From Verrucomicrobiota bacterium (GTDB lineage Bacteria; Verrucomicrobiota; Verrucomicrobiia; Limisphaerales; JADLHS01): DNA of 47,190 bases. A program made the translations under genes and the position numbers. Below, piece after piece: positions 12,957 to 42,556 of the stretch. The stretch's first letter is position 1. Every line of letters begins with the position of its first letter. The notes below the pieces were generated by a model that saw only the letters and a program-made list of their open reading frames with translations, was not told where the DNA came from and ran no database searches. Where the stretch lies: NCBI GenBank assembly GCA_025350905.1, contig JANXWY010000008.1, forward strand, positions 1-47,190. Direction: 5' to 3'.

Positions 12957-12958
12957 GG

Positions 12959-15973: not shown

Positions 15974-16193
15974 GGCCGGCCTGCGGCACCCGGAAGTGTC
16001 GGTGGTGGTGGCTGCGACCGCCCCAGCAAAAAGCCAGTTATCATTCGGGCCTCCGCCGCCTTTGAATTTGCAGTTCCTGCGGCATCACTCCGCGCGGCCG
16101 GACCGCACCTGCGCGCGGCTGGCCATCTACCGTGCGCGCTCCTGACCCTAATGGGCTGAGGCGGTCTGGCAACCCAGGTTGGCGTGGAGCGCA

Positions 16194-17690: not shown

Positions 17691-17699
17691 AAAGGTGAA

Positions 17700-20552: not shown

Positions 20553-20693
20553 TTCCGTCCGGCGAAAAGTGATTCTCATCTTTCGACGCAACAGCAGTGC
20601 GCAGGGCATCCGTTGCCCTCAACCTGGTACCGCTGCAAAGCTTTTGGTCACTATGCCGGTGATCCGCCTTGGTGTCCATCCCTCCAGTTCCGG

Positions 20694-23900: not shown

Positions 23901-24230
23901 CCGCAAGTGGGCGCAACCCATCAGGTAGTACGCCGCCGGGTTATTGTGGTCGAGCGCGAGCGCCGATTGACACTGTGCAATCGCCGCCCGGCTGTCGCCG
24001 GCCAGCAGGTACGCGTTGGCCAGGTTCAGGTGTGCGTCGATGCTTTCCGGAGCCATCTTGACCGATTGGGTGTAGGCGATAATGGCGTTGGTGGCCTCGC
24101 CCTTTTCCAGATAACCCTGACCGAGGGTCATCGAGCGTTCGAAGCCGCCGGTAGGAGGCCGCAGCCGGACAAACAGCAGTGCCGCCACGGCAGCGAAGCA
24201 GGCGACAATCAATAACAGCACCTTTTTCAT
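20952..24230 (-). CDS. TPR / FG-GAP / UnbV-type giant exported protein
   Basis: A protein of 1092 residues from ATG 24230, chosen because it gives a clean signal anchor (MKKVLLLIVACFAAVAALLF); the open frame begins seven codons earlier. Residues about 35-195 are TPR repeats (AYYLMGCAHLRLNEAEPAVQ, HYQLSRLYQRMNRTAEATQ). Next comes an FG-GAP/VCBS propeller (about 235-575; VLDYNHDGRNSLFV, VGDLNNDRFEDVVM, LLDYDNDGWLDVAA, AADFDQDGDTDLIV) and a UnbV/ASPIC-like segment (LRLAGNRSNASGLGVRVELV). The last 400 residues (from GSCPYLFAWDGQQFKFVTD) form a further domain I cannot name. The TPRs sit before the propeller, as in many UnbV proteins. It is the last gene of the cytochrome/CRTAC1 unit, and a family B repeat lies before it. 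The propeller may bind calcium through its DxDxDG loops. The function is unknown. Confidence 0.85.
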   Translation of the reverse strand: MKKVLLLIVACFAAVAALLFVRLRPPTGGFERSMTLGQGYLEKGEATNAIIAYTQSVKMAPESIDAHLNLANAYLLAGDSRAAIAQCQSALALDHNNPAAYYLMGCAHLRLNEAEPAVQAFQESQKIEPAVDALNFQLGVAQERLGHLEDAIREFETLVQFQPDHPSGHYQLSRLYQRMNRTAEATQELAKHQEIIAKNPGAVSGPATFERCLYTKPRIAFSLAQPEANGISVHFAEATAAAFGSQASVYRGPIGVLDYNHDGRNSLFVTEGNGFRLLSNSNGHFAPLGELWPATNTVAYRRCLVGDLNNDRFEDVVMLGEQASHVFRFATNGQFREVTSAAGLKNLQGRDGLLADLDFTGKLDLLVVLPEGAGLNVYRNLGSFYFQSRTNSGLPAILPGTEQVAVEDWNDEDMAGVFAARAAQPPQFFAKQRAGQFVQTNLTANWPAGRAIALGDLNNDLQVDLALADDQAIHLVFGGLNERLDLPLSGFQVKSLLLLDYDNDGWLDVAACGNGVRLWRNLGKRGFQDVTAATGLDKLGAVESIAAADFDQDGDTDLIVGTPGGLQFWRNDGGSANKQFKLRLAGNRSNASGLGVRVELVSGNWRTIRTLTQLPFEIGVGKHDQIDLLKVRWFDLATTLTEVAVATQALDLVELTLPTGSCPYLFAWDGQQFKFVTDILGAAPLGLPVSETRYIEADPEEYLALGNETQFPSKDGKFELRITEELREVLYLDQAQLVVVDHPAGTLVASTSKLRPGKPFPPHELWTLRRLASLQQAIRSDGVDVTAALAQTDHQMVSPVHLRAPQLRGLAEPFSITMDFGELPTDRPLVLALNGWLRFGGGMANIAASLDASLPFPFPQLEAELPDGTWQPVAVEVGAPAGKTKTILVDLEKKLPAGTRRLRLTTAFEIYWDSATLCEKAAADQTRQTTLRPDRTDLHWRGFSKHQPWPDFLPLTPEYENVVAAPPWRRTPAGWCTRYGAVDELLQDRDDALVLLNGGDELALSFKADQLPPKKPAGFERDFFLYVVGWDKDADVHVAEGWRVEPLPFLGLDDQAYGRQTRPPSLSATRMSHYQTRWVGPMTLNRKPPRAR

Positions 24231-24436
24231 CGAAGTCAGAGAGCCTGTCAAAATATAGTGTGACCAGCAACGAAAACTGCCGCTGGGAGGCCCGCAGCGC
24301 GCCTGGGTTCAGGTTCATGAATTCTCATCACTCTTCCGTGCGGAGGCCATTGAGCCATCCATTCAAGAAAATAAAATGGCCCGCCGTTAGCGGCCGGCGC
24401 GCGTCCGTCCTGCCGTATTGAAACAACTAAATTGCG

Positions 24437-24563
24437 GTCGGGTCGTCGCGCTGCGACGACCAGCACCGCGAGGATCGGCGCGACGATGTTGTACGGGTAC
24501 AGGTGGTATGAGACACGTTCCGGCCCTGCACGGGCCGGGGTCGTCGCAGCGCGACAACCCTAC
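24437..24563. repeat. Nested palindromic element, family B, copy 1
   Basis: A 127-bp element between the CRTAC1 gene and the TPR/FG-GAP gene, in a 341-bp gap. The left end is GTCG (one change from GTAG) followed directly by hairpin GGTCGTCGC-GCT-GCGACGACC (24441-24461). The right end is hairpin 24539-24559 with loop AGC, followed directly by CTAC (24560-24563). An inner hairpin CGGCCC-TGCAC-GGGCCG lies at 24521-24537. It is the same architecture and largely the same sequence as 40855-40985. The rest of the gap (24231-24436) is unremarkable. Confidence 0.88.
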
Positions 24564-24571
24564 CGAAGGCA

Positions 24572-26437
24572 TCAGTGCGCTTCGGTGACCGTCGTCGTCG
24601 CATCCACCGTTGGTTTTTCCACTCTTTGCTTCGCGCCGCCGGGCCAGACGATCTCGACCGCGTCGGGGCTGACCGCGGCGCCCAGACCAAAGGTCACCGG
24701 CAGTTCGGATTGGGAAAGATAGCCGCGCGTCGGCATCACGTCGCGCGACAGGGTTTGCCCGCCCACTTTCACATTAATGCGGGCGCCGATGGCATCGCGG
24801 TTGGCCTGGGTGCCGGTTAGTTTCAAGCGCAGCCAATGATGGCCAAGGGCCTGATCGTTGCGCAGCAGCAACGGCGCGCCGCCGACTTGGGTCAATAAAA
24901 CATCCAAGTCGCCATCGCCGTCGATGTCGGCGAAGGCGCAGCCCCGGCCTACGATGGGTTTGAAGAGGTCGGGCCCGCATTTATCCGCAGACACGGAGCA
25001 GAAGCAGCCGGCGCGGGCGGCCCCGGCGTTCCAGAAGAGTTGCGCCGGTTGGGCGTAGTGCTGGCTTTTTTGGATCTTGCTGATCTCCTCTTCCAAATGT
25101 CCGTTGACCGAAAGCAGGTCCAGGCGACCGTCGAGATCGTAATCAAAAAAGAACAAGCCGAACTTCAGCCATTGCCGGCTCGCGGGACCCACACCTTCGG
25201 TGATGGCTTCATCGGTAAACACCAGCGGATCCTGCTGCGAAACGTAAAGCGCCGTCATTTCGTTGGCGAAGTTGCCAATGGCGATGCCGAGGGTTTGATC
25301 GTTGCGATATCGGGCGGAGTCAATGCCCATGGCGCCCCGCGTGTTGCCATAGCTGTCGAACGCGATGCCGCTCGCCGCCCCAATTTCCTTGAATGTTCCG
25401 TTGTGTTGATTGTGAAAAACAAAGTTCTGGACGGTGTCGTTGGCGACGACGAGGTCGATCCAGCCGTCGCCATCCAGATCCACCGGCGCGACGCCGAGCG
25501 TTTTGGCCACGGGCACTCCGGTGGCCGGGTTCTTGATTTGAAGGCCGGCCGCCGCCGAAACCTCCGTGAAGTGACCGTTGCCATCGTTGTGAAACAGCGA
25601 CGGGAAGGTGCCTTCAAAATTCATCGGCTGGCCGTAGGCGCGGCCAATGCCGACGAGCTTGTAACCGACTTCAAAATCAATCTCCCGCGACCAGCGCACG
25701 TAGTGGCCGACGAAGAGATCGAGTTTCCCGTCGTTGTCATAATCAATCCACGCGGCGCAGGTGCTCCAATCATTGGTGGCGCCAGCCACGCCTGCGGCGG
25801 TGGTGACTTCCTTGAACTTCCCATTCCCTTCATTGTGGAAAAGATGGTTGCCGCCGACGCCCGTGATGAAAACATCGGGCAAACCGTCATTGTCGTAATC
25901 GCCGATCGCCGCGCCCATGCCGTAGAGACTCACGTCCAGCCCGGAGCCGGCCGTCACATCCGCAAAATGCCCTTTACCGTCGTTGCGATAGAGCGCCAGG
26001 GTGGGCTTCGGGTCGGAGGTTTTCCACGGCCAGGTGGTTGAATTGACGAACAACACATCCGGGGCGCCGTCGTTATCGAAATCAAAGAAGGCGCAGCCGC
26101 CACCCATCGTTTCCGGCAGCAGCTTGTCGCCGTAAGCCCCGTTGTTGTGGACGAACGTGATCCCAGCTGACTTGGTGATGTCGGTGAAGCGGGCGGCGGG
26201 GATTTCCGCCGGTGCTGGTTCGGAGGGAGTTGGCGCGCTGAGTTTGGTTTGTTGCTCGGGAGGGAGCGCCGGTTTGCGTTGCAGAACGATGATGACGCAT
26301 GTGACCACCAGGCCGAGGATGACGAAGGTAACGGCGGATCCGCGAAAAGCGCGGCCGATGACGGCATCGTCCAGATGCGCGACTTCGTCGTGCTCTTCGG
26401 GTGGCGGGCTGGGTTGGTCGTTGGCGTTGGGGTTCAT
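24572..26437 (-). CDS. CRTAC1 family protein, membrane anchored (FG-GAP + UnbV)
   Basis: A 621-residue protein. A cytoplasmic tail of about 32 residues and one membrane helix (about 33-55, VTFVILGLVVTCVIIVLQR) are followed by a Pro-rich linker. The extracytoplasmic part is an FG-GAP propeller (about 85-500) with calcium-type loops FDFDNDGAPDVLF, IGDYDNDGLPDVF, WIDYDNDGKLDLF, PVDLDGDGWIDLV and DIDGDGDLDV, and a C-terminal ASPIC/UnbV domain (GTQANRDAIGARINVKVGG, YLSQSELPVTFGLG). ATG 26437 is used because the earlier open frame runs into the cytochrome gene and does not look like protein. It follows the cytochrome gene by 46 bp. It is about two-thirds identical by eye to the secreted protein at 34430, but has several cysteines (GGGCAF, STCAAW, GCFCSVSADKC, GRGCAF) where that one has none. 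Confidence 0.9.
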   Translation of the reverse strand: MNPNANDQPSPPPEEHDEVAHLDDAVIGRAFRGSAVTFVILGLVVTCVIIVLQRKPALPPEQQTKLSAPTPSEPAPAEIPAARFTDITKSAGITFVHNNGAYGDKLLPETMGGGCAFFDFDNDGAPDVLFVNSTTWPWKTSDPKPTLALYRNDGKGHFADVTAGSGLDVSLYGMGAAIGDYDNDGLPDVFITGVGGNHLFHNEGNGKFKEVTTAAGVAGATNDWSTCAAWIDYDNDGKLDLFVGHYVRWSREIDFEVGYKLVGIGRAYGQPMNFEGTFPSLFHNDGNGHFTEVSAAAGLQIKNPATGVPVAKTLGVAPVDLDGDGWIDLVVANDTVQNFVFHNQHNGTFKEIGAASGIAFDSYGNTRGAMGIDSARYRNDQTLGIAIGNFANEMTALYVSQQDPLVFTDEAITEGVGPASRQWLKFGLFFFDYDLDGRLDLLSVNGHLEEEISKIQKSQHYAQPAQLFWNAGAARAGCFCSVSADKCGPDLFKPIVGRGCAFADIDGDGDLDVLLTQVGGAPLLLRNDQALGHHWLRLKLTGTQANRDAIGARINVKVGGQTLSRDVMPTRGYLSQSELPVTFGLGAAVSPDAVEIVWPGGAKQRVEKPTVDATTTVTEAH

Positions 26438-26483
26438 GAGTGGATGGCGGGAGGGGGGTGAACTTGGTTTGGGAAAGGAGGTT

Positions 26484-29366
26484 TTAGCGGGTGGCGGTTG
26501 GTTTCGCCTCGCGGACCGGGAGCGATGGGGCACTTGATAAGCCGAAGGCGCCGGGGCGTTGCAGCGGGTAGATGACGATCGCTTGGGCCGCATGGTCGGC
26601 GGCCGCATTTTGCCGGCGATGCATGGCAATGGCGCGATCGCGTGCATTGTCATCCGGCCGGAAGCGTTCGTGCAGCCGACGATGTTCCTCGGCTAGTTTT
26701 GGGTCGCCCAATTGCGCGTAAATCAGCGCGAGGTTGTAATGCGCCGTCACGTTTTCCGAATCGAGCGCGAGGGTTTTCTGGAATTGCGCTTCGGCCTGGT
26801 GCAGGAAAGCGGTCTGTTGCGCCCGGTTGGCATCGCCGCGTTCGAGTTTGGCTCGCTCGAATAGCGTCTGGCCCAGTTCGTTGATCACTTCGTAATCCTT
26901 GCTGAAGTCGAAGCCCCGTTTGTCCAGTTCGGGGTAACGATCTTCCAAGATGCTGCGGAACTCGGTGATCGCCTTGTCGAGATAACCGTTTTGCTTGTTC
27001 ACCAGGCCATTAAGCCAGGCAATTGTCCAGCGCGGCGCGGGCGGATCGAATTGCGCGGCACGCTGCAACGCGACCACAGCGTCCTCGAGCCGGCCTTCCT
27101 TGAAATACACACGCGCCAGATTCAACGGACCATCGGCGCGACCGAGTTTTTCCACGGTCTCAAAGGCCTGGGCCGCCTGGATCAACTCACCTTTCTCGCT
27201 GCCCTTGTCGCCTTCCAACAACAAGCCGATGCCGTAGTCGTTCCAGCGTTGCCATTCGGGGATCGTTGAGAGTTGAGGGCTGAGCGTTGAGGGTCGGTTG
27301 GATGCTCCGCCGACCCCCGCGATGGGAAACGTGATGGCATCGGACGCGATCACTGTGATCGGCAGATCGTTCGTCACTCGGAAGGGCGCGCCGTTGGAAT
27401 AATCCTTGCCCAAGACGTAATTCAAATAGATCGCGTCGAACTTCCGGTAATGGAGTTTTACTTCAACCGTGAGCGGCTCGGTCTGCTGCTCCGGCACCGT
27501 GAACACATAATGGGCGACCTGACCGGCCCCGGGCGGAATCTGGTGATTGTAAAGCGGGGTGAAAATGTCCTGGGGATTGCGGCGGTCAATTCGGTTACCG
27601 TCCTTATCAAGCATATAGACGTTCACGAAGTGCGACCAGGGATCCACCTCGTTGAAGGCGCCGAGACCGCCGCTGCGACCAATGATCCGGCCGCCGCTGC
27701 TGATTTTGCTCTCCACCCAGACTTCGTTGGAATCCACCGTGCCCTGCGTGAACGGATGGCCGACCTTGAGCGTCCGCAACACGGCTTCGAGCAAATACGT
27801 CTGGCCGGGTTTGAGCGTAGGAACTTGGGGGCGCAACGGCGCGATGAGCGGGCTGTCCACCGTGCCGCCTTCCTTCACGCCAAAGATGTCTAGGCGCACA
27901 GTGCCTTTGAGGAAAGCTTGCTGGATCTGGACGATGTCCGGCTCGTGGCGGAGGTGCGCGATCCCGGTATTGGCCGCGGGGAAGAGATGGTCGTGGATGC
28001 TCAGGGTGTGGTTGGTGGGATTGAAGTAGCGCGCACCAAAATCATCCGAGGGCTGGAGCGGCATGTGACAACCGGCACAGTTAGGCTGCGCCTTTTCCGG
28101 ATAGTAAAAACTGCGGGCGCTGTGGCCGGAAACTCCGCTCAACAGGTAGGTGTCGTAATGGTTCTGGCCGCGGAGAAATTCCTTGTACTTGTTCAGTTCC
28201 AACGGCAGGCTGACTTTGTGGCAGGTGGAACAAAACTCCGCGGTTTTGTGGAGCGGCTTGAGAAAAGTCTTCTTGTGGAAATCCGGCTTGGCCTTGACGA
28301 GTTGTTGGTTGATGAATTGCAACAGCGCATTCGTGCTGTAGGCAAAGGGGTAATGAATCGGTTCCTCGATGGTGTAATCGGCGTTGCCGCGCGTGCTGTT
28401 GACGTGATTGATGGCATGGCAGGCGGTGCAGGTGATGCCGGCCTTCGCGGTGGGATGATTTTCAACATCGAAATTGGGGTCGTCAAACGCGCCGCTGAAG
28501 AACGGGACCACGTCGTGGCACCCGGCGCACCAGCGGGACGCTTTCACATTGCCGTCGCGCTCCAGGGAGACTTTGCGCGTTTCTTTGACGCTGAACAAAT
28601 AGGGCTGGTTGTTGAAAGAACTGAAATGGTGCGCACTATGGAACCAGCCCTTATAAGCATCGGCGTGGCACTTCAGGCAATAGTCATCCATCATCAAAGT
28701 TTGCGCCGGAATGAATTTACCGGAGGCTGTGCGTGCCAGCGAGGGTTCAAAATATTTTTTCCCCTCGGGCGAGCCGATCACATTCTGCGGCGGATGTTTG
28801 GAGTGGAAAAGTACAGTCGCTACCGCCATGACCCCGACCACGGCTGCCCAACGCAGTCCGGCTCGCCATTGAATGCGTGGTCCCGCCAGCCGGTGCAGGA
28901 GGTAGAGCCAAACCGCCAGCAGCGGCGTGATGACGTGCGCCCAGTAAATTGGGGAACGCAGCCGGGGATCTTTGAGGACGAAGAAATCAAAGCGCATCAA
29001 CGCAATGCCGGTGAACAACAACACCAGGCTGATCGCAAACAACAGGTAGCCGACCCGGACCGCGCGGCGGTTCGGCCGATCGTGGGCGTTCTTGATATGT
29101 AGCGCGCCGAAGATGACGAACGGCGTCACCAGCAGCAGCCCCAGGACGAGGTGCGCCAGAAACATGAACTGATAAAAGTAGTTTTCGTACGAGGTTTCGG
29201 TAACCCACTGCAAAAACGTGATGCCCGCGAGATAAGCGGAATTGGCGGCGAGGACCGCCACCAAGCCGAAGATGAAGTACAGCAGCAGGCGCAAGCGCGG
29301 GCCGACCGACCGAACATATTTTTTCTTCGGGGTGGGATTTTTATCGGAGACGCCTTGGCCGGTCAT
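26484..29366 (-). CDS. Membrane pentaheme cytochrome c with C-terminal TPRs
   Basis: A 960-residue protein with three parts. Residues about 23-187 hold five hydrophobic helices, some with histidines inside or at the ends (AHLVLGLLLV, YWAHVITPLL), like a cytochrome b561 or NapC-type anchor. Residues 225-440 carry five CxxCH heme sites at 230-234 (CLKCH), 280-284 (CAGCH), 313-317 (CTACH), 379-383 (CSTCH) and 430-434 (CAGCH), with extra histidines such as HSAHH as possible axial ligands; this resembles the cytochrome c554/multiheme group. A beta-rich region and then TPR-like repeats (about 715-900) form the rest. It should pass electrons between the quinone pool and the periplasm. The start is ATG 29366, without a strong ribosome site. 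It is followed 46 bp later by the membrane-anchored CRTAC1 gene, a likely partner. Donor and acceptor are unknown. Confidence 0.9.
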   Translation of the reverse strand: MTGQGVSDKNPTPKKKYVRSVGPRLRLLLYFIFGLVAVLAANSAYLAGITFLQWVTETSYENYFYQFMFLAHLVLGLLLVTPFVIFGALHIKNAHDRPNRRAVRVGYLLFAISLVLLFTGIALMRFDFFVLKDPRLRSPIYWAHVITPLLAVWLYLLHRLAGPRIQWRAGLRWAAVVGVMAVATVLFHSKHPPQNVIGSPEGKKYFEPSLARTASGKFIPAQTLMMDDYCLKCHADAYKGWFHSAHHFSSFNNQPYLFSVKETRKVSLERDGNVKASRWCAGCHDVVPFFSGAFDDPNFDVENHPTAKAGITCTACHAINHVNSTRGNADYTIEEPIHYPFAYSTNALLQFINQQLVKAKPDFHKKTFLKPLHKTAEFCSTCHKVSLPLELNKYKEFLRGQNHYDTYLLSGVSGHSARSFYYPEKAQPNCAGCHMPLQPSDDFGARYFNPTNHTLSIHDHLFPAANTGIAHLRHEPDIVQIQQAFLKGTVRLDIFGVKEGGTVDSPLIAPLRPQVPTLKPGQTYLLEAVLRTLKVGHPFTQGTVDSNEVWVESKISSGGRIIGRSGGLGAFNEVDPWSHFVNVYMLDKDGNRIDRRNPQDIFTPLYNHQIPPGAGQVAHYVFTVPEQQTEPLTVEVKLHYRKFDAIYLNYVLGKDYSNGAPFRVTNDLPITVIASDAITFPIAGVGGASNRPSTLSPQLSTIPEWQRWNDYGIGLLLEGDKGSEKGELIQAAQAFETVEKLGRADGPLNLARVYFKEGRLEDAVVALQRAAQFDPPAPRWTIAWLNGLVNKQNGYLDKAITEFRSILEDRYPELDKRGFDFSKDYEVINELGQTLFERAKLERGDANRAQQTAFLHQAEAQFQKTLALDSENVTAHYNLALIYAQLGDPKLAEEHRRLHERFRPDDNARDRAIAMHRRQNAAADHAAQAIVIYPLQRPGAFGLSSAPSLPVREAKPTATR

Positions 29367-30286: not shown

Positions 30287-32455
30287 TTACGGCGTGAGCG
30301 AGCTCGCCGTGCGGTAGAATTTCTGCGCGGCGCCGGCACTATTCGTACTTACAAGCCACCCTTCGAGCGCGAGTTTGGCCCCGCCGGGTTCATCCGTGAA
30401 CGCATTGCTGAGATTCGTGGTGGACTGCAATTTGTAGTAGAAACCACGGAGCGTGTTGTGGCGAACTTCGTCGTTATTGGCGTCAACCTTTCGTAGCGCC
30501 AGGGTCACCGGTGCGTTGATAACTGAGCCGTCGAAATACTTGCGCGCTAGCGCCCAAACGTCTTTGCCCACCTGCGCCCCCAGGCGCCGACCCACCAAAT
30601 TGTCAATCGGCGGATGAATCCCGCCCCAGATCCGGGAAATTCCGGCTTGATCGGCCGCATCGTAGTAGGTGGCCCATTGCAAAATGACCGGCGCCGACGG
30701 GCCGTTTTCAAAGCCGAGAACATAAATGTTATTGGTGCCGAGGCCGCCGGGAAAGAACGGGGTGCCCGTGATCGCCGCGAGAATTTCGGCGGCCGAACGG
30801 CTGAACGTGCTATGGCCCGAAATGTAGCCGGGAAAGGCCGGGGTGACAAAATTCGTGCGTTGATACGGCGCCCAGGTATCGGCGTGAATCCATTTCACGC
30901 CACTGTATTGGTTGACCGGGTCCCCGGGCGGACCGGGCCAGGCCAGAACCGCGATTTTGCCCGGCGTCAAGCCGGCATGCCGACCGGAGGCGGCGGTGTC
31001 GGCCGTCACCAGTTCGATCTGGTTGGCAATGAGGGGGAGGCCGTTGGTGTTATACGACGGGAGGTTGGGATTGCTGGACTGGCCGAGGCCGGCCAGGAAG
31101 CGGACGGCACTCATCGGCCGCCACGCATCGTAGTAGCGCTTGATTGACCACGCGGTGCAGGCGGCTTCATGGACCGCGGCATTCAGGGCGAAGTACATTT
31201 TCACGTCCCACTCCAAATCATCCACGACCGGCCCCGTCCCGCCGATTTTTTTCACCAGCAACGGATTGTCCGCAACGTAATTGGCCAAAACATTCCAGTG
31301 CCCGGGCGGGGTTTCAGAATTCGGACCATCCGCCCAGAATTCAGCCAACACGCGGGCGAGATCGCCGCGTTTGACCAGATGCGGCTCGTACGGTTGGCCG
31401 GTGACGGGGTTGGTGCTGTAGCCATGGCCATCATACAGCACGAAGTTGCCGGTGCCGTAGTCACCGGCAAACGCAAGACTGTTGTTGCCATAAGCCGCTG
31501 GAGAAATATCAACCATCGCTCCGTCATCCGGGGTTAACTGGCAGTCCGCGGTGATCATGGCCACCACTTCGCGCACAAACTGTTCATGCGTCGGACCGCC
31601 AAAGAACGGCGGCGGTCCGGGGTCAATCCATGGTTTGGTCGCATCCGTTCGGGCGAGGGCGAAAGGCCGCACCCCGAGCCATTGCGCGCCCAGATAACTT
31701 TGGAGCGGCCCGAGTGGAAATCCATTTTGGTCCACGGCATTGACGATGCGCAGCCGCTGCCAATGATTGATATCCACCACCGTCAGCCCGGCGTTGGTGC
31801 CCCCGGAGCCATCATCGATGCCGGCCCGATCGGTCGCCAGCGCGGGGTTGAGGTAGACATACCCGCCTTGGTTGGCGGGGTAATCCGGGTAAGCGATCGG
31901 TGGGTCGCGCAGCGGGTAGGGAGTGCCATTGGTTTGCCGGGCGCCGTCATTGAGGAACCAGGCGGAAACCGCATCGTACACCGAATTGCCGACTCCGGCC
32001 GGGGTGGAAGTGTCGCGCGAGGCATTGTTCGTGTCGTAACCCAACGCCGTCATCTGGATGTCGTCCAGAACCAAAGTATTGCTGGCCGTCCGGGAATAGA
32101 CGTGGCGCTCCTTCAGGAGCCGCCACGCGGCGTAGGAGATCGCTTCATTCCGGGCTGCGGCCAGATCGGCGGCCGTGTGCTTGCCGCGATAGACGTAGCC
32201 CACCGCGTTGGTGTCGTAGGCAGCCCAGGCATCATACATGCAGGCCGAGAGGCTGAAGTAATTGCGCGCTTGCGCGGGGGGATGCGGCGTGTCCTGTCGG
32301 ATGGCCGCCAGCGCGCGCTCATCCCAAACGCGGGCGACGCTGTTGGTGGCCCGGGCGCGGGTGACCACAAGGAGGCCCACTAGAATCAATAAGGCAAACT
32401 CGAGTTTTCTCCCGGTTCGAGACAATACCAGAGCTGATCGGATTTTGCTTTGCAT
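30287..32455 (-). CDS. Vanadium-dependent haloperoxidase-like protein (PAP2 fold)
   Basis: A 722-residue exported protein (signal about 1-36, ALLILVGLLVVTRARA). All parts of the vanadate/phosphate pocket of the haloperoxidase/PAP2 superfamily can be seen: K439/R440 and R446 in SIKRYYDAWRP, the PAFPGYISGHST loop with S546-S549 and H548, and R608 with H614 in SRIWGGIHPP. Such enzymes oxidise halides with hydrogen peroxide; related proteins are acid phosphatases, so halide activity is not proven. The N-terminal half (NYFSLSACMYDAWAAYD) matches the bacterial vanadium-chloroperoxidase-related group. The C-terminal 70 residues are an extra, poorly conserved part. The gene follows the LytTR regulator by 91 bp on the same strand, suggesting LytS/LytTR control. 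The start is ATG 32455. Confidence 0.9.
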   Translation of the reverse strand: MQSKIRSALVLSRTGRKLEFALLILVGLLVVTRARATNSVARVWDERALAAIRQDTPHPPAQARNYFSLSACMYDAWAAYDTNAVGYVYRGKHTAADLAAARNEAISYAAWRLLKERHVYSRTASNTLVLDDIQMTALGYDTNNASRDTSTPAGVGNSVYDAVSAWFLNDGARQTNGTPYPLRDPPIAYPDYPANQGGYVYLNPALATDRAGIDDGSGGTNAGLTVVDINHWQRLRIVNAVDQNGFPLGPLQSYLGAQWLGVRPFALARTDATKPWIDPGPPPFFGGPTHEQFVREVVAMITADCQLTPDDGAMVDISPAAYGNNSLAFAGDYGTGNFVLYDGHGYSTNPVTGQPYEPHLVKRGDLARVLAEFWADGPNSETPPGHWNVLANYVADNPLLVKKIGGTGPVVDDLEWDVKMYFALNAAVHEAACTAWSIKRYYDAWRPMSAVRFLAGLGQSSNPNLPSYNTNGLPLIANQIELVTADTAASGRHAGLTPGKIAVLAWPGPPGDPVNQYSGVKWIHADTWAPYQRTNFVTPAFPGYISGHSTFSRSAAEILAAITGTPFFPGGLGTNNIYVLGFENGPSAPVILQWATYYDAADQAGISRIWGGIHPPIDNLVGRRLGAQVGKDVWALARKYFDGSVINAPVTLALRKVDANNDEVRHNTLRGFYYKLQSTTNLSNAFTDEPGGAKLALEGWLVSTNSAGAAQKFYRTASSLTP

Positions 32456-34429: not shown

Positions 34430-36154
34430 TTGAAAACACCAAACAAATCCTATCTTGCAGTGGGGGTGCTCCTGGCCGCCACCCCGTTTGGGCACGCAAA
34501 CCCGGAGGCGACGAGTGAAATCCCGACCGTGAAATTCACCGACATTACCGCCGCCGCCGGGATCAAATTCGTCCACCATAACGGCGCATACGGTGACAAG
34601 TTGTTGCCGGAAACGATGGGTGGCGGAGTGGCCTTCCTCGACTACGACAACGACGGCCATCAGGACTTGCTGTTCATCAATTCCACCGACTGGCCGGGTC
34701 ACGTTCCGCCGGGCAGGCAACCGCCGACCATGGCGCTCTACCACAACGACGGCCAGGGCCGTTTCGCGGACGTCACGGCTGACTCCGGTCTCGACGTGAG
34801 TTTCTATGGCATGGGGGTGGCCGTGGGTGACTATGACAACGACGGATTGCCGGACGTCTTCATCACGGCCGTGGGCGGGAATCACCTTTTCCACAATGAA
34901 GGCAAGGGCAAGTTCCGTCAGGTGACCCAGGCGGCCGGGCTCGACGGTTCGCCCGACAATTGGAGCACCAGTGCGGCCTGGATCGATTACGACAATGACG
35001 GCAAGCTGGATCTGTTCGTGTGCAACTACGTCCGGTGGTCGCCCGAAATTGATCGCGCCGCCAATTTTGAACTTCCCAATCTCGGGCGCGCGTACGGTCC
35101 GCCACGTAATTTCGCCGGCACTTTCCCGCACCTCTATCATAACGATGGCAACGGCAAGTTCACGGACACATCAGAGCCGGCCGGCATCCAAATCAAAAAC
35201 CCGGCCACGGGTCTGCCCGTTGCCAAGTCGCTGGCCGTGGCGCCCGTGGACGTGGACAACGATGGCTGGATGGATCTGGTGGTCGCCAACGATACGGCGC
35301 AAAATTTTCTCTTCCGCAACCAGCGCGATGGGACGTTCAAGGAAATTGGCGCGCGTTCGGGCATTGCCTTTGACGCTTATGGCCTAACCCGGGGCGCGAT
35401 GGGCATCGACTCGGCCCGGTTTCGCAACGACGACACCTTGGGGATTGCGATCGGGAATTTTGCCAATGAGATGAACGCCCTCTACGTCGCGCCGCGCGGC
35501 TCGCTGGTCTTCGCTGACGAAGCCATTCGGGAAGGTGTCGGGCCGGCCAGTCAAAAGTTGTTGAAATTCGGCCTGTTCTTTTTCGACTATGATCTCGATG
35601 GCCGGCTCGACGTCCTGACGGCCGATGGCCACTTGGAACCCGAAATCAATCGCGTCCAGCCCACGCAACAATACCGCCAACCGGCCCAGCTCTTTTGGAA
35701 TCGAGGCGACAAAGGTTTAGGGTTCCTGCCCGTGCCCCCGGAAAAAAGCGGCCGGGACCTGGTCCAGCCGATCGTGGGGCGCGGTTCGGCTTTCGCAGAT
35801 ATTGATGGCGACGGGGATCTGGATGTCGTGCTGACCCAGGTCGCGGGCGCGCCGTTGTTATTGCGCAACGATCAGAAGTTGAACCATCATTGGATTCGAC
35901 TGAAATTAATCGGCACCAAAAGCAACCGCGACGCCATCGGCGCCTGGCTCAAGGTACATGTGCGCGGTCACACTTTGTCGCGCCAGGTGATGCCCACCCG
36001 CAGTTACCTCTCGCAGTCTGAATTGCCGGTAACGATCGGGTTGGGGGAAGCGGACAAGGTGGACAGCGTGGAAATCGCTTGGCCGAGCGGCCAAACTCAA
36101 CGCCTCAATTCGCCGGCGATTGACCGTCTGACGGTCGTCACCGAGCCTCGCTAG
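34430..36154 (+). CDS. CRTAC1 family protein, secreted (FG-GAP + UnbV)
   Basis: A 574-residue protein from TTG 34430. The signal peptide (MKTPNKSYLAVGVLLAATPFGHA) is convincing, which supports this start although no ribosome site is seen. The mature part is an FG-GAP propeller with FLDYDNDGHQDLLF, VGDYDNDGLPDVF, WIDYDNDGKLDLF, PVDVDNDGWMDLV and DIDGDGDLDVV, followed by an ASPIC/UnbV domain (GTKSNRDAIGAWLKVHVRG, SYLSQSELPVTIGLG). Alignment by eye with the membrane-anchored protein at 24572 shows about two-thirds identity from end to end, so the two are recent paralogues that differ in how they are placed (free against anchored) and in cysteine content. It is divergent from the LytS/LytTR pair. 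The molecular role of bacterial CRTAC1 proteins is not known; calcium binding is likely. Confidence 0.9.
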   Translation: MKTPNKSYLAVGVLLAATPFGHANPEATSEIPTVKFTDITAAAGIKFVHHNGAYGDKLLPETMGGGVAFLDYDNDGHQDLLFINSTDWPGHVPPGRQPPTMALYHNDGQGRFADVTADSGLDVSFYGMGVAVGDYDNDGLPDVFITAVGGNHLFHNEGKGKFRQVTQAAGLDGSPDNWSTSAAWIDYDNDGKLDLFVCNYVRWSPEIDRAANFELPNLGRAYGPPRNFAGTFPHLYHNDGNGKFTDTSEPAGIQIKNPATGLPVAKSLAVAPVDVDNDGWMDLVVANDTAQNFLFRNQRDGTFKEIGARSGIAFDAYGLTRGAMGIDSARFRNDDTLGIAIGNFANEMNALYVAPRGSLVFADEAIREGVGPASQKLLKFGLFFFDYDLDGRLDVLTADGHLEPEINRVQPTQQYRQPAQLFWNRGDKGLGFLPVPPEKSGRDLVQPIVGRGSAFADIDGDGDLDVVLTQVAGAPLLLRNDQKLNHHWIRLKLIGTKSNRDAIGAWLKVHVRGHTLSRQVMPTRSYLSQSELPVTIGLGEADKVDSVEIAWPSGQTQRLNSPAIDRLTVVTEPR

Positions 36155-36267: not shown

Positions 36268-36405
36268 TTCTGCTTTCTGTATTTTTTGAGTCCACTCGAG
36301 GGATCAGTTTTTTGGCGGGAGTTGAGACTTGACCCCAATGTCCGCTCTTACTTACGGTGATCGCGGCGGCTCCCGGTTTAGAGTCGGTGAACAGTCCATT
36401 TTCTT

Positions 36406-36410
36406 GGGAG
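36406..36410 (+). promoter_or_regulatory. Ribosome binding site GGGAG for the GTG-start CRTAC1 gene
   Basis: GGGAG lies 5 bases before GTG 36416 and decides this start over the open-frame beginning at 36329, which would add 29 residues of poor composition. Confidence 0.7.
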
Positions 36411-36415
36411 CCGCC

Positions 36416-38383
36416 GTGCGAACCTTGAACAGCCACCAGCCTCAGCCCCGGTGCCAGAATCGTTTTATCGGCACGGTTTTCCCACTGTTGTGGTGGAGTT
36501 GGATCCTTTGGTTAAGTTTTGTTGCCACGCCAGTGCGAGCCACGGACACGGAAGCTCAGACAATACGATGGCTCGAGACGCGGAAGCGGCAACAGTTGGA
36601 GACCGTGACGAAGTTTCAAGCCTTCCATGAGTTCCACTTTGCGGATCATCTCGCCGCCAGCGGAATCACTTTTCAACATCGCGCCGTAGATGACGCTGCC
36701 AAGAATTGGGTGCGTGGCCACTATGATCATGGCTGCGGCATGGCGGCCGCCGACGTGGATGGAGACGGGTTACCCGACATTCTGTTTGTGAACCAGTTAG
36801 GGGCCAATGAGCTCTGGCGGAACCTGGGGGACGGCCGTTTTGAGAACATCACGGCGAAAGCGGGAGTGGGCCTGCCCGGCCGGATTTGCGTCGGGGCTGC
36901 GTTTGCGGACTTCGACAATGACGGCGACCCGGACTTGTTCATTACGACCGTTCGCCATGGTAACGTGCTCTTCGAAAACCTTGGCGACGGCACGTTCCGG
37001 GACATTTCAAAAGCAGCAGGCGTCGATTACTCCGGCCATTCGTCGGGGGCGGTTTGGTTCGACTTTGACAACGATGGCCTCCTGGATCTTTTCGTCTGCA
37101 ACGTGGGAAAGTATACCACGGATCAGGTCGGTCCCGGAGGCTACTATTTGACGATAGCCAGCGCGTTCATGGGTCACCTTTACCCCGAGCGGTCGGAACC
37201 CTGTCTGCTCTACAAAAATCTGGGGCATGGAAAATTCAAAAATGTTACCGCCACCGCGGGCTTGAATAACCCGGGTTGGACCGGGGATGCCACGTTCGCG
37301 GACCTGAATGGTGATCGTTACCCCGACCTGTACCTGGCGAACATGCAGGGCGACGATCATTACTTTGAAAATCGGAGCGGGAAGGGTTTCGTGGAGAACA
37401 CCGCCGCGTTGTTCCCGAAGACTTCGTGGGGCGCGATGGGCTTAAAGTTTTTTGACTACAACAACGATGGCCGGATGGACTTGTTCGTCACCGATATGCA
37501 TTCCGACATGACCACGGAACAGGAGCGCCAGGCCGCCTCCTACCGGCTCGAGGTGGAGAAACAGAAGAACGAGAAGTTCTGCTCCATCGAGTATACCGAA
37601 GCCGTTCTGCAGGGCTCCTCCAACAATATCTTCGGCAATACCTTTTATGAGAACCTGGGGGGCGGGAAGTTTCGCGAGCGCTCCGATGAACTGAACCTCG
37701 AGACTTACTGCCCTTGGGGCATAAGCACGGGTGACCTCAACGCGGACGGATTCGAAGACGTTTTCGTCAGCGGGGGAATGGGATACCCGTTCCGATACGG
37801 CATCAACTCGGTGCTGTTGAATGAGCACGGGACGAAGTTCTTCGACGCCGAGTTTGTGCTGGGAGTGGAGCCCCGGGCCAGCGGCCACACTGCGGTCATT
37901 CAGTTCCTCCTGGATTGCAGCGGCGCCGACGCGGGTCGCTCAGAATGTGCCGGCGTTTCCGGCCAGGTCGGCGTTGAGGGCCATGTGGGAACCCGGACCT
38001 CAATAATTCTCGACCTCGATGGGGATGGGGACCTGGATATCGTCACGGGCGACATGAACAGCCGGCCACAGGTACTGCTGAGCGACCTCACCTCCCGTAA
38101 ATCGATCCATTACCTGAAAGTAAAACTCGTCGGCTCCGCCTCCAATCGCGATGGATTGGGCGCAACGGTAAAAGTCTACGCCGGCAACCGCGGGCTTACC
38201 CGGTATCACGATGGCAAGTCGGGGTATCTTGGCCAGAGTTCGCTGCCGCTCTATTTCGGTCTCGGGGACGCAGTCAAAGCGGATCGCGTTGAAGTGGCCT
38301 GGCCCTCGGGGCAATCCCAATCTGTCACAATCGACATCCCAACAAACAGCCTCTTGATAGTGCGTGAACCTGCGACCCGTTGA
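36416..38383 (+). CDS. CRTAC1 family protein, second exported type
   Basis: A 655-residue protein from GTG 36416 (strong GGGAG upstream). The signal peptide is WILWLSFVATPVRA (about 22-42 with its hydrophobic core LLWWSW). An FG-GAP propeller follows (AADVDGDGLPDILF, FADFDNDGDPDLFI, WFDFDNDGLLDLFV, FADLNGDRYPDLYL, FFDYNNDGRMDLFV, STGDLNADGFEDVFV, LDLDGDGDLDIV), then an ASPIC/UnbV domain (GSASNRDGLGATVKVYAG, GYLGQSSLPLYFGLG, VEVAWPSGQSQ). It is clearly a different subfamily from the proteins at 24572 and 34430: it has an extra insertion with a run of charged residues (EQERQAASYRLEVEKQKNEK) and a short cysteine pair (CSGADAGRSEC). It stands between the secreted CRTAC1 gene and the AsnB-like gene on the same strand, 54 bp before the latter. 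Confidence 0.9.
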   Translation: MRTLNSHQPQPRCQNRFIGTVFPLLWWSWILWLSFVATPVRATDTEAQTIRWLETRKRQQLETVTKFQAFHEFHFADHLAASGITFQHRAVDDAAKNWVRGHYDHGCGMAAADVDGDGLPDILFVNQLGANELWRNLGDGRFENITAKAGVGLPGRICVGAAFADFDNDGDPDLFITTVRHGNVLFENLGDGTFRDISKAAGVDYSGHSSGAVWFDFDNDGLLDLFVCNVGKYTTDQVGPGGYYLTIASAFMGHLYPERSEPCLLYKNLGHGKFKNVTATAGLNNPGWTGDATFADLNGDRYPDLYLANMQGDDHYFENRSGKGFVENTAALFPKTSWGAMGLKFFDYNNDGRMDLFVTDMHSDMTTEQERQAASYRLEVEKQKNEKFCSIEYTEAVLQGSSNNIFGNTFYENLGGGKFRERSDELNLETYCPWGISTGDLNADGFEDVFVSGGMGYPFRYGINSVLLNEHGTKFFDAEFVLGVEPRASGHTAVIQFLLDCSGADAGRSECAGVSGQVGVEGHVGTRTSIILDLDGDGDLDIVTGDMNSRPQVLLSDLTSRKSIHYLKVKLVGSASNRDGLGATVKVYAGNRGLTRYHDGKSGYLGQSSLPLYFGLGDAVKADRVEVAWPSGQSQSVTIDIPTNSLLIVREPATR

Positions 38384-38437: not shown

Positions 38438-39814
38438 ATGGAAAGCGGCGTTGCGAAGCTGCCGATCAATGGTTATTACTATCGCAAATCCATGAAAAAC
38501 CAATACCTCGAACGGCTGGTTGATCTCACCGAACCTTCAGCCAATCGTATCCTCAACATGACGGTGGACGAAGCTCGGGGCCGCCTCCGGCGTGGTCCCG
38601 CCGAAGGGCTCCGAGAGATTGAAGGTTCCTTTGCGCTCGTCGCCAAGGAAGGGAAAGCCGTGCGGCTGGCCCGGTCTTTGGATCGACCCCTGCGCTACTT
38701 TCTGGCCAAACGTCACGAAGGCCCCGCGCTGGTGGTTGCGCACCGCATCGATGCCATCTGGCAATGGCTAAAGCAGGAGGGCTTCGCCGCCCAATTTCAT
38801 CCCAGCTACACCCGGATGGTGCCGGCGCATTATTTGGTCGAAATCCAGTTGGTGGGATGCCCCGATCCCGACCCGGTTTGTGAACGTTTTTTCACGCCAC
38901 CCCGCAATGCTTTCCCGACGAATCTCCAGCAGCTCGGGGAGAACTACATCGGCGCACTGGCGCATGAAGTCAAACAATGGTTGACCAGTCTGCCCGCCAC
39001 GGAACCGATTGGCGTTTGCTTCTCCGGCGGCATCGACAGCGGCGCCGTTTTCCTGGTCACGTACCACTGCCTGTTGCAATTGGGGATGAATCCGGCCCGG
39101 CTCAAGGCCTTCACGCTCTCCATGGCCGGCGGGCCCGATCTGGATCAGGCCAAGGCATTCATGGACCGGCTCGGCCTCGGCCTTTTTCTGGAACCCGTGG
39201 AAACCGATCTCGCGTCCCTGAATCCGCTCGAGACGATCCGCATCGTGGAGGATTACAAATCGCTCGACGTTGAGTCCGCGACCATGGCCCTGGCGCTGTG
39301 TCGCGGACTTCGCCAACGCTACCCGGACTGGAAGTTCCTCATCGATGGCGACGGCGGCGACGAGAATTTGAAAGATTATCCGATCGAGGAGAATCCCGAA
39401 TTGACGATCAACAGCGTGGTGAACAATCGTCTGCTGTATCAGGAAGGCTGGGGCTTGGGGACGATCAAGCATTCCCTGACCTATTCCGGCGGCTTGAGCC
39501 GCTCGTACACGCGCACCTACGCGCCGGCGCATCATTATCATTTCGAAGGCTTCAGCCCCTTTACGCGGCCGCGGGTCATCGAGCAAGCCGAAGGGATTCC
39601 CTTTATCGCGTTAACGGATTACGACGTCGAAAAACTCTACCAACTGAAAGGGGAAATTGTCGGGCGCGGCGTCAAAGCGGTCACCGGGTTGGAAATGCCG
39701 ATCTTTCCCAAGCGTCGTTTCCAGCACGGGGCCGTTCCCTTGGAGCGTCTCCGGCTGCGGCTGTCCGGAACCGATCCGGAATACCGGAACCAATTCCTGG
39801 GGCTTTATGCCTGA
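38438..39814 (+). CDS. Asparagine-synthetase-like ATP-dependent enzyme, no glutaminase cysteine
   Basis: A 458-residue protein of the AsnB family. The synthetase half has the ATP-pyrophosphatase loop SGGIDS (196-201), a conserved SLD-type helix (KSLDVESATMALAL) and DGDGGDE (303-309) in place of the usual SGEGSDE. The first 160 residues resemble the class II glutamine amidotransferase fold (EIEGSFALVAK, LARSLDRPLRYFLAKR, then YTRMVPAHYLVE and RFFTPP), but the catalytic Cys2 and the first strands are missing. It therefore should not take ammonia from glutamine in the usual way, as in lasso-peptide cyclases and beta-lactam synthetases. It probably activates a carboxylate with ATP and joins it to an amine. 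ATG 38438 is used; ATG 38492 is possible. It is followed by radical SAM and FAD genes on the same strand. Confidence 0.88.
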   Translation: MESGVAKLPINGYYYRKSMKNQYLERLVDLTEPSANRILNMTVDEARGRLRRGPAEGLREIEGSFALVAKEGKAVRLARSLDRPLRYFLAKRHEGPALVVAHRIDAIWQWLKQEGFAAQFHPSYTRMVPAHYLVEIQLVGCPDPDPVCERFFTPPRNAFPTNLQQLGENYIGALAHEVKQWLTSLPATEPIGVCFSGGIDSGAVFLVTYHCLLQLGMNPARLKAFTLSMAGGPDLDQAKAFMDRLGLGLFLEPVETDLASLNPLETIRIVEDYKSLDVESATMALALCRGLRQRYPDWKFLIDGDGGDENLKDYPIEENPELTINSVVNNRLLYQEGWGLGTIKHSLTYSGGLSRSYTRTYAPAHHYHFEGFSPFTRPRVIEQAEGIPFIALTDYDVEKLYQLKGEIVGRGVKAVTGLEMPIFPKRRFQHGAVPLERLRLRLSGTDPEYRNQFLGLYA

Positions 39815-39879
39815 TGCACGGCTTTGAACATGAGCAAGGCGACGGGCCGGGTCCCGCTGCCTAATTTTTAATTTTCACT

Positions 39880-40824
39880 TTGAATTCCCCGGTCACGACG
39901 GCTTGGATTTCGGCGCAACGACCACCCCGACAAGGTGGCATGGATCCCTTCAAGCCCCACGGATTTTTCCTGGAGCAGGAACGGTCCCGTTCCGGGCGCG
40001 TGGTGCCGTCCGCCGTGATTCTACTCTCGAACAAGGAGTGTCCGTGGCGCTGTCTGATGTGCGACCTGTGGAAAAATACGCTTAAGGAGACCGTGCCGCT
40101 CGGGGCGATTCCCCGCCAAATTGACTACGCCCTGACGCAACTCAATACCAAGCCCGAACAACTCAAGCTCTATAACAGCGGCAGCTTCTTCGATCCGGCC
40201 GCCATTCCGCTCGCGGACTACCCGGCCATCGCGGATCGGGTTTCCTTCGCGGACCATATCGTGGTGGAAGCGCACCCACGGCTGGTGGGCGAAGCCGCCG
40301 TGAGACTCCGCGACTTGCTGTCCGGTTCCTTGGAAGTCGCCATCGGGCTGGAAACCGTGCATCCGGAAATCCTGCCGCGCTTGAACAAGAAATTCGAATT
40401 AGCCCACTTTGCCCAAGCCGTCGATTTTTTGCGGTCGGCGGGAATTGTCGTGCGCGCGTTCGTGCTCGTGAAGCCGCCTTTCATGAACGAAGCCGAGGGC
40501 TTGGCGTGGGCGGTGAAATCGGCGGAGTTTGCCTTTGCTTGTGGCGTAAGTGTCGTTGGACTTATCCCGACGCGACCCGGCAACGGGGCCATGGATCGCT
40601 TGATGGAAACGGGCGAATTTACACCGCCGCGCCTGGCCACTTTGGAGCAAGCTTTGACGCTCGCTCTGAATTTGCGGCAAGGACGAGTATTTGCGGACAC
40701 TTGGGATCTTGAACAATTCGCCGCGTGTTCCGTTTGTCTTGAAAAACGACGGCAGCGTTTGCACACCATCAACCTGACTCAGCAGATCCTGCCGGCCATT
40801 GGCTGTGAGGTATGCGGAGGATAA
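39880..40824 (+). CDS. Radical SAM enzyme (RaSEA/Elp3-like group)
   Basis: A protein of 314 residues from TTG 39880, or 294 from ATG 39940. The 4Fe-4S site is C54, C58 and C61 in ECPWRCLMCDLWKN. The rest of the half-barrel shows KLYNSGSFFDP, the HIVVEAHPRL strand, LEVAIGLETVHPEILPRLNKKF and VRAFVLVKPPF. These features recall the archaeosine-synthase-like (RaSEA) and Elp3-like radical SAM proteins more than methylthio-transferases. Four further cysteines near the C-terminus (C283, C286, C309, C312) could bind zinc or a second cluster. The N-terminal AWISAQRPPRQGG seems part of the family, which favours the longer start, but AAGG before ATG 39940 leaves the choice open. It follows the AsnB-like gene by 65 bp. 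The substrate is unknown. Confidence 0.88.
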   Translation: MNSPVTTAWISAQRPPRQGGMDPFKPHGFFLEQERSRSGRVVPSAVILLSNKECPWRCLMCDLWKNTLKETVPLGAIPRQIDYALTQLNTKPEQLKLYNSGSFFDPAAIPLADYPAIADRVSFADHIVVEAHPRLVGEAAVRLRDLLSGSLEVAIGLETVHPEILPRLNKKFELAHFAQAVDFLRSAGIVVRAFVLVKPPFMNEAEGLAWAVKSAEFAFACGVSVVGLIPTRPGNGAMDRLMETGEFTPPRLATLEQALTLALNLRQGRVFADTWDLEQFAACSVCLEKRRQRLHTINLTQQILPAIGCEVCGG

Positions 40825-40854
40825 TGAGCCCCGGCCAGACCCAACTGGATTGGG

Positions 40855-40985
40855 GTAGGGTCGTCGCGCTGCGACGACCAGCGCCGCGTGCAGCGGCGCA
40901 ATGGTTTGGCGCGCATGCAATGACCGACCACGGCATTCGTTCCGGCCCCGGCCAGGCCGGGGTCGTCGCAGCGCGACAACCCTAC
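40855..40985. repeat. Nested palindromic element, family B, copy 2
   Basis: A 131-bp element in the gap before the FAD gene. GTAG (40855-40858) touches hairpin GGTCGTCGC-GCT-GCGACGACC (40859-40879). A second hairpin GCGCCGC-GTGCA-GCGGCGC lies at 40881-40899. A GC-rich palindrome (CCCCGGCCAGGCCGGGG) and hairpin 40961-40981 with loop AGC touch CTAC (40982-40985) on the right. It ends 5 bp before GTG 40991. Confidence 0.9.
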
Positions 40986-40990
40986 CTGAT

Positions 40991-42556
40991 GTGAACCGCC
41001 AACACTTTCAGGTCGTCGTCGTTGGCTCCGGTTTTGCCGGCTCGCTGATCGCCATGATTGCGCATCGACTCGGTCTGACCACCGCGCTGGTCGAGCGGGG
41101 GCGGCATCCGCGTTTCGTGATCGGGGAATCCTCAACCCCATTGACAAATCTCCTGCTCGAAGAACTGGCCGACGATTATGATCTGCCGTTCGTACGTCCG
41201 CTTTGCAAATGGGGGACGTGGCAGAAACAGACGCCGCAGCTCGCCTGCGGGCTCAAACGCGGCTTCACTTTTTACCATCACGAACTCGATCATCCGTTCC
41301 GGCCGGACCCCGAACGCCAGCGGCAGCTCCTGGTCGGCGCCAGTCCGCGGGAACAAATTGCCGATACGCATTGGTATCGACCGGACTTCGACCATTACCT
41401 CGTCCAACAGGCCCAAGCTTTGGGTGTGACCTTTTGGGACGAAGTCGAACTGGCCACCGCCCGCGAGGAAGCGGACGGGATGCATCTGGCCGGGAAGCGA
41501 CACGGCAAATGGGTGGAGCTCACGGCGGAGTTTGTCATTGATGCCACCGGCCCGCGGGGATTCCTCCATCGGGCGCTGGGGCTGCCGGAAAAAACCTTCG
41601 CCGCCTTGCCACCGACGCAGGCGTTGTTTTCGCACTTCACCGGCGCTGGCCCGTTGCCGGACGCCTTTGTCAGTGCGGGCGAGGCGCCGCCTTATCCGCC
41701 GGAGCAGGCGGCGGTGCACCATGTCTTTGCCGGCGGCTGGGTTTGGGTTTTGAAATTCAACAACGGGCTCACCAGCGCCGGAATTGCCGCCACCGATCCG
41801 GTCGCGCAGGCGTTGAAGCTCCCGGCGGGCGAGCCGGCCTGGCGGAAACTGTTGGTTCGTTTGCCCGCCCTGGCAGAAATTTTCGCCTCGGCCCGGGCCG
41901 TCGTGCCGTTCACTCACCAGCCGCGCCTCGCCTTCCAGAGCGGAGTGAACACCGGTCGAGCCTGGGCGCTCCTGCCGTCGGCGGCGGGCGTTATCGATCC
42001 GTTGCTCTCCACCGGATTTCCGTTAACCCTGCTGGGCGTCGGACGGCTCGCCCGTCTGCTGCAAGCGCATTGGCACCAGCCAACTTTTCAGCCGGGTCTC
42101 CATGATTATGCGCAGTTAACCACGCTCGAGCTGGAGACGACCGCGCGGCTCGTGGGCGCGCTGTATGCAACGATGGACCGGTTTGAACTGTTCCAGGAAT
42201 TGAGCCTGCTCTATTTCGCCGCCGCCAGTTTTTCGGAAACGGCCCGCCGTTTGGGCAAACCGCATCTGGCCGATGGCTTCTTGCTGTGCCGACACCCTGG
42301 ATTTGCCGCCCAACTCCAGGCAATCTGTGGCGCCGCCAGCCAACCACTTTCCGTAGGCGAAATCGAAAACTTGAGACAGCGCGTTCGGGTGGCAATCGAA
42401 CCCTTTGACGTCGCGGGCTTGACCGACCGTTCCCGCCATCCGTGGTACCCGGCGTTAGTGATGGATCTCTTACGGGGCGCGCCCAAGCTTGGCGTGAGCG
42501 AAAAGGAAATCGCGGCCATGTTGCAAAAGTGTGGTCTGAATGCGGGTAACCCTTGA
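40991..42556 (+). CDS. FAD-dependent halogenase/monooxygenase-like protein
   Basis: A 521-residue flavoprotein from GTG 40991, chosen because the longer open frame runs through the family B repeat. The dinucleotide-binding site is VVVVGSGFAGS (GxGxxG at 12-17), and IGESSTP with GES at 45-47 is the second FAD-contact motif shared by flavin halogenases and related hydroxylases. FVIDATGPRGFLHR is the third. K89 in GLKRGFTFYHH falls where halogenases carry their catalytic lysine, and WVWVL (250-254) stands in for the WxWxIP motif, of which only the first two tryptophans remain. Halogenation is therefore possible but not established; a hydroxylase or reductase of the geranylgeranyl-reductase type remains an alternative. 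A partner flavin reductase is not in the window. It is last in the AsnB-like/radical SAM/FAD set. Confidence 0.85.
   Translation: MNRQHFQVVVVGSGFAGSLIAMIAHRLGLTTALVERGRHPRFVIGESSTPLTNLLLEELADDYDLPFVRPLCKWGTWQKQTPQLACGLKRGFTFYHHELDHPFRPDPERQRQLLVGASPREQIADTHWYRPDFDHYLVQQAQALGVTFWDEVELATAREEADGMHLAGKRHGKWVELTAEFVIDATGPRGFLHRALGLPEKTFAALPPTQALFSHFTGAGPLPDAFVSAGEAPPYPPEQAAVHHVFAGGWVWVLKFNNGLTSAGIAATDPVAQALKLPAGEPAWRKLLVRLPALAEIFASARAVVPFTHQPRLAFQSGVNTGRAWALLPSAAGVIDPLLSTGFPLTLLGVGRLARLLQAHWHQPTFQPGLHDYAQLTTLELETTARLVGALYATMDRFELFQELSLLYFAAASFSETARRLGKPHLADGFLLCRHPGFAAQLQAICGAASQPLSVGEIENLRQRVRVAIEPFDVAGLTDRSRHPWYPALVMDLLRGAPKLGVSEKEIAAMLQKCGLNAGNP

Follow-up and report, generated by a model that had tools for sequence, protein, structure and literature searches.

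Enzymes related to those described here are known from several settings. In archaeosine synthesis by ArcS and RaSEA (TIGR01210), a lysine is attached and the adduct is then converted by RaSEA, a radical SAM enzyme (PMC11298593). Glutaminase-less members of the AsnB family, such as beta-lactam synthetase, carbapenam synthetase and the lasso cyclase, and their amidating relatives TsrC, ScdTA and PesC share an asparagine synthetase PP-loop domain and a degenerate N-terminal domain. Phenolic FAD halogenases are represented by PltM, which makes a chlorinated signal and not an intermediate (PMC6424973), and by CtcP, the tetracycline 7-halogenase. In the ammosamide pathway, a halogenase (Amm3) and an AsnB-like enzyme (Amm20) both act late on a small molecule, the role of Amm20, which is insoluble, having been assigned without an assay (PMC12715798).

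The window analyzed here, a stretch of 47,190 nucleotides from a Verrucomicrobiota bacterium, carries three co-directional genes on its forward strand. The first encodes a 458-residue ATP-dependent AsnB-like ligase devoid of glutaminase (38438-39814, with a true start probably at 38492 since homologues begin at Met19), the second a RaSEA-like radical SAM enzyme (rSAM; 39880-40824, homology from 39898) and the third a predicted FAD-dependent halogenase of the PltM/CtcP phenol-halogenase type (open frame 40901-42556). Ligase and rSAM are separated by 65 bp, and the halogenase homology starts near 40991, which leaves a gap of 166 bp after rSAM. The initial annotation had described these three genes with the same spacing and was right in this respect, although it overlooked two co-directional genes upstream (34430-36154 and 36329-38383) that encode FG-GAP/UnbV_ASPIC proteins according to Pfam, possibly with an accessory role; the second of them, of beta-propeller type, ends 54 bp before the ligase frame. 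The conservation described below marks the members of the trio as genuine genes subject to purifying selection. The trio resembles the ArcS-RaSEA system in combining a ligating enzyme with a RaSEA-type radical SAM partner, for which RaSEA is the best curated match in all members, but differs from it in being bacterial, in drawing its ligating partner from a different family, in having a halogenase as third partner and in an rSAM score that reaches only half of the family cutoff. From the ammosamide pathway it is set apart by the peptide scaffold built by PEARLs in that system, by the large size of the ammosamide cluster and by the absence there of a radical SAM enzyme of the trio's kind.

The ligase is recognized by the Pfam family Asn_synthase (PF00733) at 6.4e-11 and scores 41.5 bits against NCBIfam TIGR01536 (glutamine-hydrolysing asparagine synthetase), far short of the cutoff of 267. 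Both signatures of the AsnB-type PP-loop domain, SGGxDS and G-D/E-G-x-D-E, are invariant in 10 aligned ligases and at least 97% conserved over 63 sequences; in the window they read SGGIDS (about 39023-39040) and GDGGDE (about 39347-39364, within DGDGGDE). The Met-Cys start is found in no aligned ligase homologue, the window protein included, so that the glutaminase nucleophile is absent, as had been noted from the sequence at the outset. Mean column identity amounts to 81% in an alignment of 10 sequences from three families, and 147 columns are conserved at 97% or more over the 63 sequences, including SGGxDS, most of GDGGDEN and KRRFQHGA. From its position in the motif, the Lys of KRRFQHG (about 39710) is probably the catalytic lysine of asparagine synthetase; the PDB profile alignments end before this residue. 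Profile comparison with the PDB gave weak similarity solely to asparagine synthetase itself (4e-6), with no match at an E value of 0.1 to beta-lactam synthetase, carbapenam synthetase or lasso cyclase, and only chance matches to biotin carboxylase for the C-terminal half. The AlphaFold model, built on a shallow alignment, is poor (pLDDT 52.7). The window ligase has the PP-loop domain and degenerate N-terminal domain of the glutaminase-less AsnB ligases and their amidating relatives. It departs from them in lacking a lactam synthetase match at this threshold, and genes of peptide, carrier or thioester type were not seen around the trio.

The rSAM protein matches Pfam Radical_SAM at 7e-5, under Pfam's cutoff. 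RaSEA (TIGR01210) is the only family matched by all 11 rSAM members, the window protein scoring 109.7 bits for a cutoff of 212, and no TIGR01210 protein over the cutoff was found in the genomes of 18 near relatives. All 40 relatives compared keep the CxxxCxxC motif (CPWRCLMC in the window, about 40039-40062), and 37 of them also have both C-terminal CxxC pairs, which form a CxxC-x22-CxxC arrangement in the window protein and account for the four extra cysteines reported initially. Among the three exceptions, two loci from family f68 (L061 and L072) encode an rSAM without either pair; in one of these two genomes (G480) a profile search did not find the ligase. In four genomes from families f76 and f114 (G544, G573, G612 and G623), the rSAM match lies in pieces inside one longer open frame, which suggests inserted segments at these loci. 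The predicted structure of the window protein is good (pLDDT 90.7) and displays a radical SAM barrel fold. Its structural matches are radical SAM enzymes with Z scores up to 16, and the CxxxCxxC motif and partial TIM barrel of the superfamily are both present. No subfamily is picked out by the fold search, in which biotin synthase, HydE, RlmN and queuine lyase obtain equivalent Z scores of about 16 (15.8 over 217 residues for queuine lyase).

The third protein is a predicted PltM/CtcP-like FAD halogenase, a likeness that does not prove a phenolic substrate. It matches Pfam Trp_halogenase at 1e-11, and its nearest solved relatives in single-sequence searches are PltM (3e-43) and CtcP (8e-38), with 2e-69 for the profile against PltM. 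GxGxxG, IGES and CGLKRGF are conserved over ten aligned orthologues, in which IGES, which reads VIGES in the window and includes the GES noted early in this flavoprotein, and CGLKRGF are invariant. The Lys of the latter (about 41255) aligns with the catalytic Lys87 of PltM, whose position was taken from a published mutagenesis primer, the K87A primer reading ACGI-K-LGFSF (PMC6424973); the PltM context ACGIKLGF matches CGLKRGF. PltM and CtcP are nonetheless distant relatives only: the WLWVIP of PltM is WVWVLK in the window, and the partners of the halogenase in the trio are not polyketide synthases. A reading of the flavoprotein as a QhpG-like maturase was rejected on the basis of its score and of the conserved halogenase Lys, the maturase cutoffs being far from reached (QhpG, 64.5 of 240 bits; GoxB, 28.9 of 400; LodB, 23.4 of 400). 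On the reverse strand, at 30287-32455, the window also encodes a 722-residue protein with DUF6851, a match to the second helical bundle of vanadium chloroperoxidase and a weak PAP2 match. This protein, whose gene lies some 8 kb away from that of the FAD halogenase, is a second and unrelated possible halide-oxidizing enzyme.

Profile searches over 196 genomes of the window's order, from 58 families, detected the ligase in 82, the halogenase in 74 and rSAM in 83, or 85 if two weak rSAM matches are added to the strong ones. The initial annotation had made its proposal depend on conserved co-occurrence in related genomes, and such co-occurrence is what this sample displays, with the same gene order recurring. 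Indeed, ligase and rSAM occur together in 77 genomes, the ligase alone in 5, rSAM alone in 6 and neither in 108 (Fisher p ~1e-40). Halogenase and rSAM are both present in 69 genomes (halogenase only, 5; rSAM only, 14; neither, 108), and halogenase and ligase in 66 (halogenase only, 8; ligase only, 16; neither, 106). The whole trio is found in 64 genomes, the ligase-rSAM pair without halogenase in 13, and rSAM with halogenase but without ligase in 5; assembly gaps may lie behind some of the incomplete sets. These Fisher values ignore phylogeny and are inflated by lineage-wide shared ancestry, for which a test with one genome per family controls in part: the ligase-rSAM association then gives 24/1/2/31 in the above order (p = 6e-13), with p = 1e-8 for halogenase-rSAM and p = 4e-6 for halogenase-ligase. 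The idea that the halogenase is a passenger restricted to the window, suggested by the first 13 loci, was overturned by its presence in 74 of the 196 genomes.

A thin sampling of the phylum (288 genomes) returned a full-length ligase in three genomes, the window's included, and within the window's genus the ligase is present in two of six genomes, the other four giving only weak flavoprotein matches (62-78 bits) to the halogenase profile. No relatives of the ligase were found on plasmids, and viral contigs yielded no relatives. Plasmids yielded two distant rSAM relatives from Streptomyces (28.5-28.9%). One of these (29%), on pFRL5 (L157, 14905-16020), lies in a cluster unlike the trio, with genes for a P450, a serine hydroxymethyltransferase (SHMT), a GT9 glycosyltransferase and a carbamoyltransferase, which is apparently an uncharacterized natural-product cluster.

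The order AsnB-rSAM-halogenase on one strand recurs in the 196-genome sample. Of the 77 genomes with both ligase and rSAM, 32 have the two side by side (32 of the 38 in which they share contig and strand); rSAM and halogenase are adjacent in 43 of 69, and in all 43 where contig and strand are shared. All three are contiguous in 14 genomes. Adjacent genes are often less than 60 bp apart or overlap, and overlaps are frequent between rSAM and halogenase. Co-occurrence holds also for genes on separate contigs, and the dispersal of the trio in many genomes indicates that an operon structure is not required. Distance correlations of 0.77 between rSAM and halogenase (24 genomes) and 0.56 between ligase and rSAM (37 genomes), calculated without species-tree control, are only consistent with a shared history.

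The distant family f5 offers a simpler version of the set. The ligase, at about 65-69% identity, is present in 14 of 200 genomes of this family, none of which has a halogenase orthologue, and in the loci long enough for both genes it adjoins rSAM, with FG-GAP/ASPIC genes close by. In the ligase and rSAM trees (midpoint rooting), the f5 sequences form one clade nested in the diversity of the order, consistent with a single joint acquisition of the pair without halogenase. Ligase and rSAM are the core of the set, and the absence of the halogenation step in f5 designates the halogen as a decoration on this core.

Clustering of the neighbours in about 80 loci showed that the trio families recur in 23, 22 and 18 bacterial families, followed by FG-GAP/ASPIC in 7. 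Among the shared neighbours of dispersed trio genes (58 further loci), ASPIC (7 families) was the sole notable recurrence, the ABC ATPases, SDRs and PQQ propellers being generic. Genomes contain 5 to 28 ASPIC domains (15 in that of the window, three of them within the window), so that ASPIC proximity is above background but not general. No trio-specific protease or transporter recurs in these neighbourhoods, and a search of all frames within 700 bp turned up no conserved short ORF other than the reading frames of the trio and their shadows, in agreement with the early remark that no precursor peptide is visible nearby. On the reverse strand, the window further comprises three consecutive genes (20952-29366), which encode a TPR/FG-GAP protein, an ASPIC protein and a cytochrome c554-TPR protein. 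Relatives of the latter are found near the trio in 4 families, with an alginate-export-like porin beside the cytochrome gene in two loci. Two gene pairs at 11550-20609, also on the reverse strand, resemble by eye those for proteins of DUF1501 and DUF1549/PSCyt types, which are common in Planctomycetota and Verrucomicrobiota.

Co-occurrence and gene order strongly support the earlier proposal that the three enzymes act together in one pathway, and since the genes accompany one another across dozens of families in the order, the trio very probably builds a halogenated small molecule. We give a probability of roughly 0.6 to a more precise reading, namely a single pathway for a small halogenated compound made from primary metabolites, with neither carrier protein nor ribosomal precursor peptide. 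In this pathway, the ligase would adenylate a carboxylate and couple it to an amine, which would be an amino acid or free ammonia given the lack of a glutaminase cysteine to free ammonia from glutamine. As the ligase is nearly always accompanied by rSAM, a sequential action of both enzymes is probable, for which ArcS and RaSEA provide a precedent. The ligase conjugate would pass to rSAM, which might break or rearrange a C-N or C-C bond in the manner of its nearest named relatives, RaSEA and queuine lyase. The halogenase, best seen as a late tailoring enzyme because it is of the phenol type and dispensable, would then chlorinate or brominate an electron-rich, probably phenolic, ring. From these elements we infer a substrate common to the three enzymes, a sequence of steps in line with the gene order and, as the most likely product, a halogenated aromatic amide. 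A bolder version, in which the ligase attaches an amino acid, the RaSEA-like enzyme cleaves the adduct so that nitrogen stays on the substrate, and halogenation follows, would represent a new amide-forming chemistry and supply uncultured Verrucomicrobiota with a widespread halogenated compound for signalling or defence; we consider it a long shot.

The same pair of core enzymes could instead modify RNA or another macromolecule, as an ArcS/RaSEA-like two-step machine that attaches an amino acid to a nucleoside or protein and leaves nitrogen behind upon radical cleavage, the flavoprotein either hydroxylating or halogenating or being a separate passenger. The exclusive match of all rSAM members to RaSEA, the rank of queuine lyase among the top structural matches and a ligase conservation unusually high for secondary metabolism point in this direction, whereas the sub-cutoff rSAM score, a ligase of the asparagine synthetase family and not ArcS, and a PltM-type halogenase as third partner in 64 genomes argue against it. 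We know of no halogenated RNA base, and overall this explanation seems unlikely to us. Peptides, on the other hand, are substrates of AsnB-like enzymes in the lasso, TsrC, ScdTA and PesC pathways (PMC13060819), and the trio might modify a ribosomally made peptide, or else the neighbouring secreted FG-GAP/ASPIC proteins at their C-terminus, by amidation or cross-linking, a radical step and peptidyl halogenation. FG-GAP/ASPIC genes do adjoin the trio in the window and lie near the pair in f5 loci, in genomes with only 5 to 28 ASPIC domains each, yet their recurrence in only 7 families, the lack of a conserved short ORF within 700 bp and the failure of any set-specific protease or transporter to recur make a RiPP pathway rather improbable.

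Unrelated functions for the three genes, with a co-occurrence due to nothing more than joint inheritance in one clade, would fit with Fisher tests that ignore phylogeny and with genes often lying on separate contigs. Presence and absence nevertheless alternate within families, even in the window's genus, the same order is re-assembled across families with rSAM and halogenase never apart when they share contig and strand, and the ligase-rSAM pair appears as one unit in the distant family f5, all of which renders independence very improbable. The single pathway toward a small halogenated compound is the reading we favour.

No curated family lies above its cutoff for the ligase or rSAM, and the literature on the combination returned only unrelated pathways, with no paper found describing the trio, which concurs with the first impression that the set could not be assigned to a known pathway. 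While the enzyme superfamilies are known, their combination and its spread thus appear undescribed in the searchable literature. Roughly one in three genomes sampled from this large Verrucomicrobiota order possesses the trio, whose presence predicts that a halogenated metabolite is widespread among bacteria from which few natural products are known. With its three small genes, the set lends itself to joint testing, and it could bear on the biological formation of organohalogens in the environment.
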